Shown piece by piece: positions 26,443-29,203 of a stretch of 53,519 nt of DNA. Below the pieces are notes generated by a model that saw only the letters and a list, made by a program, of their open reading frames with translations, ran no database searches and had not been told where the DNA came from. Where the stretch lies: the NCBI GenBank assembly GCA_015489955.1, contig WFYR01000048.1:1-53519 (forward strand), read 5' to 3'. The DNA comes from Mesoaciditoga sp. (GTDB lineage: Bacteria > Thermotogota > Thermotogae > Mesoaciditogales > Mesoaciditogaceae). Within the stretch, counting starts at the first letter, position 1. Every line of letters starts with the position of its first letter. The translations under genes and the position numbers were made by a program.

Positions 26443-26958
26443 ATGAAAATATGTTCAACGTTTGAGAGTCCCATTGGAACGATGAAAATTTGTGAAGAAA
26501 ACGATAAAATATGTGAAATAAGATTTGTAAAAGATGGAGAAAATATAAGTGAAGATGTAAAAGGCGAAAATTCAGGAAAGTCAACAATTGAAAAGGTATT
26601 AAAAGAACTGAAGGAGTACTTTTACGCAGGGAGAACCACTTTTGATTTCTCAATTTCATTGCGTGGAAGTGATTTTGAGAAAAAAGTATGGAGGGCCGCT
26701 CTTTCAATACCCTTTGGAAAGGTGAAAACTTATTCCGATCTGGCCAAATTTATAGGTAGACCAATGGCTTACAGAGCGGTCGCAAATGCGTTGGGAAAGA
26801 ACAAACTTGTATTGGCTGTTCCGTGCCATCGTGTTGTGTCCAAAAGCGGAATTGGAGGTTTCAGTGCTGGATTGTGGAGAAAAGAATGGTTTTTGAAGCA
26901 TGAAGGCATTGAATTGACCACGTTAACGAAAAGTACAAAGGAGGAGAATTTAAGATGA
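26443..26958 (+). CDS. ogt: Methylated-DNA--protein-cysteine methyltransferase
   Basis: A 171-residue suicide enzyme that removes the alkyl group from O6-alkylguanine. The active-site motif is LAVPCHRVVSKSGIGGFSAGLWRK, and the DNA-binding helix-turn-helix is YSDLAKFIGRPMAYRAVANALGKN. The N-terminal ribonuclease-like domain is small and Glu/Lys-rich. The start is ATG 26443 with AAGGAAATTT. It is followed by an ATGA overlap with DUF1015 and then by lexA, so a DNA repair gene and its likely regulator share a transcript. Confidence 0.93.
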   Translation: MKICSTFESPIGTMKICEENDKICEIRFVKDGENISEDVKGENSGKSTIEKVLKELKEYFYAGRTTFDFSISLRGSDFEKKVWRAALSIPFGKVKTYSDLAKFIGRPMAYRAVANALGKNKLVLAVPCHRVVSKSGIGGFSAGLWRKEWFLKHEGIELTTLTKSTKEENLR

Positions 26959-28148
26959 TCGTAAGACCTTTTAAGGCACTACGACCAGATTCAAAGTACG
27001 TTGAAAGGGTGCAATGCCCACCTTACGATGTTGTGACGAAAGAAGAGGCAAAGAAGTATGCTGAAGATCCATACTCCTTCATGAGTGTTATAAGACCAGA
27101 TGCTATAGCAAAGGAAGACGAAAATATCTACGAAGTCGCTGCCAGAGAATTAAAGAGACTGATAAAAGAAAAGGTGCTGATAAGAGATGAAAAGCCCATC
27201 TTTTACCTTTACTCTCAGACAATGGGACATCATACACAAACGGGTTTGGTGGCATGCGTTGCTGCGAAAGAGTATCCAGAAAAAATAAAAAGACATGAAC
27301 TTACCAGAGAGGATAAAGAAAAAGAACGAATAAAACATATATTGGCTACGCGGGCGAATACCGGCCAGGTTTTTTTGACTTTCAGAAGCGATGATAATTT
27401 GAAAAAAGCCATTAACGTTGAAAATGGACGGCTTCTTTACGAGGTTAAAAGCAAGAACCCGGATGTTGTTCACCGCATCTACGCTATAGAAAATGAAATC
27501 GATATCAAACGAATAGAAGATATTTTTGATGATGTACCAGCATTTTACATTGCCGATGGTCATCATCGTGCATCCGCTTCTGTTCAAGTTTCCAAAGAGT
27601 TTAATGGTGAGGGAGAATGGAATTACTTTATGGCAACGATATTTCCTCATGACGAGCTTCAACTGATGGGATATCACCGTGTGGTGAAAGATCTGAATGG
27701 AATGTCAGAAGAAGAATTTCTTAAAAGATTGAAGAAGGCGAATTTCGATGTTTGTGAAGTTAACAGCAGTGTGGTTGAGCCAAAAACCGTTCATCATTTT
27801 GGAATGTATCTTGATGGAAAGTGGTATGAATTGAAGGCGATTGACGTTAATGATAAAGATCCAATAAAAAAATTAGACGTTTCCATTCTGCAAGAAAGAG
27901 TTCTGAGCCCTATTCTTGGAATTGAGAATCCGAGAACCAATTCAAGAATAGATTTCGTGGGTGGAATACGTGGAATTCCTTACTTAAAATCTCTGGTAGA
28001 CAATGAGAATTACGTTGTTGCCTTTGCACTTTATCCGACTAGAATTGAAGATGTCATGGAAGTTGCAGATGCCAATCTCTTTATGCCACCAAAATCCACG
28101 TGGTTTGAGCCAAAGCTTCAAAGTGGTCTTTTAATACATACTTTTTGA
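26955..28148 (+). CDS. DUF1015 family protein
   Basis: A 397-residue protein of the DUF1015 family, recognised by the N-terminal VRPFKALRPDSKYVERVQCPPYDVV and by AFYIADGHHRASASV. The DGHHR motif resembles the catalytic segment of ParB/sulfiredoxin-like folds, and family members have been proposed to be kinases. Biochemical function is not established. The start is ATG 26955, with GGAGGAG upstream and overlapping the ogt stop. Neighbours (ogt, lexA) hint at a link with DNA damage, which is inference only. Confidence 0.85.
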   Translation: MIVRPFKALRPDSKYVERVQCPPYDVVTKEEAKKYAEDPYSFMSVIRPDAIAKEDENIYEVAARELKRLIKEKVLIRDEKPIFYLYSQTMGHHTQTGLVACVAAKEYPEKIKRHELTREDKEKERIKHILATRANTGQVFLTFRSDDNLKKAINVENGRLLYEVKSKNPDVVHRIYAIENEIDIKRIEDIFDDVPAFYIADGHHRASASVQVSKEFNGEGEWNYFMATIFPHDELQLMGYHRVVKDLNGMSEEEFLKRLKKANFDVCEVNSSVVEPKTVHHFGMYLDGKWYELKAIDVNDKDPIKKLDVSILQERVLSPILGIENPRTNSRIDFVGGIRGIPYLKSLVDNENYVVAFALYPTRIEDVMEVADANLFMPPKSTWFEPKLQSGLLIHTF

Positions 28149-28170
28149 TCGTTGAACAAAGAGGTGTTAG

Positions 28171-28734
28171 CTGATAAAAGAGCTTACAAAGCGTCAGAAG
28201 GAAGTCTACGATTTTATAAAAAAATTCATCAAAGAAAATGGATATCCTCCAACCATAAGAGAGGTGTCTCATCATTTTGGATTTTCTTCTCCTTCGGGAG
28301 CTATCGCTCATATTGAAGCCCTTCAAAAAAAAGGATATATAAAGCGTGATCACGCTTCAAGAGGAATAAAGCTTGTAGCGGAACCACCTTTGGAAATAAG
28401 TGCGGCGCGTGTATTTGGGCATTTCGATGAAAATGGTTTAGTTCAAGAAAATAAGAAGTTGAAATTTATTCCCCTTCCAGATGAAAAAGATGATCTCATC
28501 GCTGTCGTGAGTAAAACTGACATTCCTGCGGTAAACATTTTAAAAAACGATTACGTCATATTTGAAATGAACACTGCAAAAGAGGGTCTGGCTATGGTAT
28601 CGATGGAAAGGAGAATTTTCGTTGGCTTTTTGAAAAAATCAAAATTCGAGAAGCTCTCAGGAGAAAAGCAAAAAGGGTTTAAAGTTCTTGGTTCCTTTTA
28701 TGGCATTTTGAGAATTCAAGAAAGGAGGAAATAA
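28171..28734 (+). CDS. lexA: LexA-like repressor with a CTG (or ATA) start codon
   Basis: A 187-residue LexA homologue. The winged-helix N-terminus is textbook: KELTKRQKEVYDFIKKFIKENGYPPTIREVSHHFGFSSPSGAIAHIEALQKKGYIKRD. In this frame TAG (28168) is followed directly by CTG ATA AAA GAG CTT, and no ATG/GTG/TTG exists until GTG 28264, which would remove the first half of the DNA-binding domain. GAGGTG at 28161-28166 serves CTG 28171 (4 bases) or ATA 28174 (7 bases). The C-terminal domain is S24-like in outline but has no Ala-Gly cleavage site, Ser or Lys where LexA has them (VVSKTDIPAVNILKNDYVIF; RRIFVGFLKK). It may therefore respond to a signal other than RecA-driven self-cleavage. Confidence 0.82.
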   Translation: MIKELTKRQKEVYDFIKKFIKENGYPPTIREVSHHFGFSSPSGAIAHIEALQKKGYIKRDHASRGIKLVAEPPLEISAARVFGHFDENGLVQENKKLKFIPLPDEKDDLIAVVSKTDIPAVNILKNDYVIFEMNTAKEGLAMVSMERRIFVGFLKKSKFEKLSGEKQKGFKVLGSFYGILRIQERRK

Positions 28735-28735
28735 C

Positions 28736-29203
28736 GTGAGTGAAATTAAAGTCGTAAGTTTTAAAATCGGAGGGGAAGAGTACGCGCTGGATATAATGAA
28801 AATAGACAGCATCATAGAAGTCAAAGATATTCTAAACGTTCCACAGGCTCCGTACTTTGTCAAAGGGATAATGGATTTTAGAGGAACGGTCATCCCCGTT
28901 TTAAGCGGTAAAAAGAAGTTTGTTTCTCCAAATGAGGAAGATGAGAGCAACAAAGCAATAGTGGTAAACATAAAAGATAAGAAAATGGCCATTCTTGTGG
29001 ATGAGGTAAAAGAGGTTTTGACCTTTTCACAAAACGTTCTGGAGGAGCCGCCAGAAGAGATCACAAATGAGTCTAACAAATATATAAGCGCTATAGCAAA
29101 TGTTAAAGGCAGAATGATAATGGTCTTGGATATAGACAGGCTTCTCAGTAAAAAAGAAGAAGAGAAAATTTCGAATTTAAGCGCACAAAGTGAAACTAAA
29201 TAA
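28736..29203 (+). CDS. cheW: CheW chemotaxis coupling protein
   Basis: A 155-residue adaptor that links chemoreceptors to CheA. The whole sequence is a CheW domain: VVSFKIGGEEYALDIMKIDSIIEV, then QAPYFVKGIMDFRGTVIPVL, and ILVDEVKEVLTF near the middle. The Ser/Lys-rich tail is short. The start is GTG 28736, one base after the lexA TAA, with AGGAGGAAATAAC. No other chemotaxis gene is in the window, so its receptor and kinase lie elsewhere. Confidence 0.93.
   Translation: MSEIKVVSFKIGGEEYALDIMKIDSIIEVKDILNVPQAPYFVKGIMDFRGTVIPVLSGKKKFVSPNEEDESNKAIVVNIKDKKMAILVDEVKEVLTFSQNVLEEPPEEITNESNKYISAIANVKGRMIMVLDIDRLLSKKEEEKISNLSAQSETK

Follow-up and report, generated by a model that had tools for sequence, protein, structure and literature searches.

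A LexA-like repressor of a Thermotogota family with a predicted AUA, AUC or AUU start codon and without the residues for self-cleavage

Where translation of a lexA gene begins when its reading frame offers no ATG, GTG or TTG before codon 31 is the question raised by a stretch of 53,519 nucleotides from Mesoaciditoga sp. (hereafter the window), which is contig 48 of a 1.77-Mb draft genome (G000; 120 contigs, 88% complete). The LexA frame is open from 28171 to 28734 and reads TAG-CTG-ATA-AAA, the codons CTG and ATA being the only ones before the conserved Lys-Glu-Leu-Thr. A preliminary description of this DNA had pointed out the missing conventional start, the TAG followed by CTG ATA, a ribosome-binding site at the proper distance and a GTG as the first conventional in-frame codon, all of which we could confirm; the GTG is codon 31 (Table 1). 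The Pfam LexA_DNA_bind match begins at residue 2 of the protein as started from ATA (E 2e-23).

Table 1. Features of the lexA-like locus, given as positions in the window
Feature	Position	Strand	Remark
Upstream gene, presumably DUF1015-type	26955..28148	+	ATG start; probable operon partner of lexA
Shine-Dalgarno sequence AAAGAGGTG	28158..28166	+	seven bases 5' of ATA; similar purine block in relatives
TAG stop in LexA frame	28168..28170	+	rules out a start further upstream
CTG codon	28171..28173	+	not conserved in relatives; unlikely as start
ATA, predicted lexA start codon	28174..28176	+	ATA, ATC or ATT in 9/9 family members
lexA-like gene	28174..28734	+	186 codons plus stop
Winged helix-turn-helix DNA-binding domain PF01726	28177..28365	+	Pfam match
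GTG (Val31), first in-frame conventional codon	28264..28266	+	not kept as start in relatives
C-terminal LexA-like domain	28399..28713	+	without Ala-Gly site, catalytic Ser and Lys; no Pfam Peptidase_S24 match
Downstream cheW-like gene	28736..29203	+	GTG start; named by reading the sequence

We compared the locus among ten genomes of the same Thermotogota family (G000-G009, including the window genome). A search for relatives found the lexA-like gene in nine of them, G003 lacking it, and in all nine an isoleucine codon is aligned to the methionine of normal LexA: ATA in six (G000, G001, G002, G005, G007 and G009), ATC in two (G006 and G008) and ATT in G004. Each of these codons is preceded, at similar and workable spacing, by a ribosome-binding site of the AGG, GAGG or GGAG type. 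The preliminary description had left the choice between CTG and ATA open and suggested aligning the start region in relatives; this alignment upholds ATA and leads us to reject CTG, because CTG is private to the window genome and the isoleucine codon is common to all nine.

LexA genes of other Thermotogota start differently: all 86 genes collected from six other families have a conventional codon (ATG, GTG or TTG) no more than three codons away from the aligned position. At the aligned start of LexA in the Thermotoga family (f11; L111-L115, L122-L125, L127, L129, L130, L140 and L145) we observed TTG in 12 of 14 genes and GTG in the other two, so that weak starts of lexA may be more widespread in the phylum. 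A background scan of 408 open frames, taken from 400 kb of G007 plus the window, gave a coding signal before the first NTG for lexA (both copies), some fragments and gatA of G007. The latter (L069:1536-2930) has no conventional in-frame start, its ATG being out of frame, which probably reflects a small indel error in the assembly; in the relatives examined, conventional codons lie close to the start of gatA, and the problem is private to G007. This lineage thus makes no habit of unconventional starts. Searching the contigs of named relatives yielded only two distant LexA loci, and in a limited literature search we found no report of a bacterial lexA with a non-AUG start.

The window protein contains the winged-helix DNA-binding domain of LexA (PF01726, 82.3 bits versus a cut-off of 23.7), scores 80.1 bits with the full-length LexA equivalog TIGR00498, below the cut-off of 110.95, and gave no Pfam match to Peptidase_S24. 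Its predicted structure resembles LexA (mean pLDDT 87, pTM 0.60), and Foldseek retrieved LexA of E. coli and T. maritima, including 3jso and 3k2z (T. maritima LexA) with E values of about 1e-10, in support of a LexA-like C-terminal fold; TM scores of the full-length model to LexA structures are low (0.38-0.46) owing to the uncertain domain arrangement. In another family of the same class LexA is nearly identical to 3k2z, which fits the Thermotogota lineage. With one strong PF01726 gene per family genome, G003 having none, the lexA-like gene is the only close LexA homologue of the family. The Ala-Gly cleavage site, the catalytic Ser preceding Met and the Lys of the TLK motif are lost in nine of nine family proteins; Ala-Gly and Ser are present in all 21 aligned LexA proteins from other Thermotogota families and the Lys motif in nearly all of them. 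This loss had gone unmentioned in the preliminary description and alters the probable role of the gene. In genus g10 of family f7 (L139, L147, L148, L150, L157 and L160) the open frame with the LexA domain comprises only 157-170 amino acids, suggesting that part of the peptidase domain may be missing in this genus as well.

We consider it likely that the family possesses a non-cleavable LexA-like repressor that is started at AUA, AUC or AUU and kept scarce by weak, IF3-sensitive initiation. Comparison within the family places the start at the isoleucine codon and reveals the loss of the cleavage residues; IF3 control and low expression are plausible by analogy with published cases. Initiator fMet-tRNA, positioned by the Shine-Dalgarno sequence, would read the ATA with a third-base mismatch, and IF3 would disfavour this codon so that LexA synthesis would reach only a small part of the rate expected with AUG. 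For other genes it is established that IF3 destabilises initiation at codons of this kind and that output is therefore low, and an isoleucine start codon in nine species suggests that initiation of translation probably keeps lexA production at a low level. As RecA-triggered self-cleavage would be impossible, the amount of LexA would be set by weak synthesis, dilution and turnover, and it may rise or fall with IF3 activity. It is conceivable, though we are doubtful, that synthesis control has replaced RecA-driven self-cleavage, the dose of an uncleavable LexA being adjusted via IF3-sensitive AUH initiation; if so, the LexA regulon would be tied to the state of the translation machinery.

That the codon has a functional role is suggested by its retention and by the contrast to the 86 conventionally started genes, since neither its third base nor the ribosome-binding site stands out. 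Taken alone, the lack of G at the third base falls short of significance, with six of 22 fourfold-degenerate columns also being free of G in all nine genes, and the Shine-Dalgarno sequences of the family lexA genes are not clearly stronger than average (median -11.5 versus -10.7 kcal/mol). An unusually strong Shine-Dalgarno sequence like that of S. aureus ccpN was not found in these genes. The non-significant G avoidance would suit an account that we regard as unlikely, namely that the isoleucine start has no regulatory meaning: a decaying LexA would have acquired a weak start a single time, in the ancestor of the family, and no repair would have followed. The lost peptidase residues agree with such decay, as does the clean absence of the gene between its neighbours in G003, but in nine species the gene retains an uninterrupted frame and a strongly conserved DNA-binding domain. 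Moreover, the third base has varied (A, C or T), and silent sites differ by 36-64% between the pairs of family members compared, which would have left ample chance for a one-step repair to ATG.

Far less probable is initiation at an upstream in-frame GTG, which would make the isoleucine an internal residue. Such a GTG is found two or three codons upstream in G002, G005, G006 and G008, where it overlaps or abuts the Shine-Dalgarno sequence, lying inside it or only a few bases from it. It is absent from the other five genomes: a stop directly precedes the isoleucine codon in G001, G007 and G009, a stop plus one codon does so in G000, and G004 contains no conventional codon between the last in-frame stop and ATT. 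An upstream GTG start is thus excluded for the window genome and impossible in five genomes. The first conventional codons downstream in these five, at residues 31 (G000), 67 (G001), 19 (G007), 19 (G009) and 47 (G004), were rejected as starts as well, being unconserved and located such that initiation there would cut into or remove the DNA-binding domain. The earlier conclusion that this LexA must start unconventionally therefore gains the support of nine genomes, five of which offer no alternative.

We give hardly any credence to the idea that the window genome carries a pseudogene here or was misread in sequencing or assembly. The window comes from a fragmented and incomplete draft, and the gatA frame problem of G007 suggests that errors do occur in such assemblies, but this explanation is refuted by the relatives, as nine separate genomes, among them the 3-contig assembly G007, carry one of three different codons at the same place, so that the ATA of the window is not a sequencing slip. 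It is just as implausible that a fused LexA arises by readthrough or frameshifting, be it out of the upstream gene or out of a mini-ORF: the upstream gene ends 12-25 bases before the isoleucine codon in eight genomes and GTG-NNN-stop stands in frame directly before ATA in G001, G007 and G009, but frames and stops vary from genome to genome, a mini-ORF of this kind is missing from G000 and G004, and in G001 the two genes lie about 770 bases apart.

The predicted AUH start of lexA resembles that of infC, which encodes IF3, starts with AUU, AUA or AUC and is autoregulated. The preliminary description had drawn this analogy, and it fits the family, where, in each of the nine genomes with an infC gene found (G001-G009), ATT, ATA or ATC stands eight codons ahead of the first conserved Asn; infC was not found in the window's own draft genome. 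In this family (f1; L039 and L041-L048) a GTG or ATG also lies in or near the ribosome-binding site of infC, two to three codons upstream, so that the gene has two possible starts and is suggestive rather than proof. The infC genes of several other families have ATC or ATA. Both lexA and infC carry an AUH codon behind a Shine-Dalgarno sequence, but IF3, the product of infC, itself represses such starts, whereas LexA is not part of the initiation machinery, and no closed feedback loop is therefore evident for lexA. The infC gene, with AUU or AUA, is the textbook example of a start codon under IF3 control (PMC5472188), and in Listeria infC and rnhC start with ATT and ATC (PMC13068326).

E. coli pcnB, in which an inefficient AUU start limits the amount of protein, differs from lexA in encoding an enzyme, poly(A) polymerase. 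Closer in function is ccpN of S. aureus and B. subtilis, which like the family lexA encodes a DNA-binding repressor and has a conserved AUA start (PMC13009471); CcpN, however, belongs to an unrelated repressor family, and its unusually extended Shine-Dalgarno sequence is missing from most family lexA copies. Conserved AUA and AUU starts have been described for ccpN and cvfC1, and in S. aureus such starts give about 10% of AUG expression, ccpN reaching up to 30% in rich medium (PMC13009471). Streptomyces sigR starts with GTC in 32 of 34 species and with GTT in the other two, and its GTC start was shown experimentally to be repressed by IF3 (PMC5472188). Like lexA it is a regulator with a conserved non-canonical start, in this case a stress regulator held down by it, but the codon is GTC rather than AUH, the protein has an anti-sigma factor as partner and IF3 control has been demonstrated by experiment. 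The predicted inability to self-cleave has a parallel in Synechocystis LexA, which lacks the Ala-Gly site and the catalytic Ser and is used outside the SOS response (PMC7567884), whereas the family LexA has lost the Lys too.

Conserved start codons of the AUH or a similar kind are, to our knowledge, known from no more than a handful of bacterial genes. With support from nine species, a LexA-type repressor would join this short list, which includes infC, pcnB, sigR and ccpN. Gene finders miss or mis-start genes with AUH-like start codons; in automated annotation this lexA would either lose part of its DNA-binding domain or, as in four species, gain two or three residues that are probably spurious. 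The coincidence of the isoleucine start with the loss of self-cleavage also raises the question of what stops an indestructible LexA from silencing its targets.

The gene is dispensable in G003 (genus g3), as there cheW comes immediately after the DUF1015-type gene (L109:2680-2745). The gap upstream of lexA in G001 (L003:2160-2820) holds two copies of a roughly 300-base repeat that is absent from other family members. RecA is present in the family genomes searched, its best natural single-copy match among solved structures being 3hr8 (T. maritima RecA), which likewise fits the Thermotogota lineage. Other S24-domain proteins are also encoded in the family and might run a damage response. A crude search for a LexA operator before recA revealed no shared palindrome, and another coding frame appears to lie immediately before recA. 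Two other Peptidase_S24 proteins, which may be self-cleaving repressors of the damage response that take the place of LexA, are encoded as open frames in the window genome, one of 233 amino acids (L076, G000:C54) and one of 262 amino acids (G000:C15).
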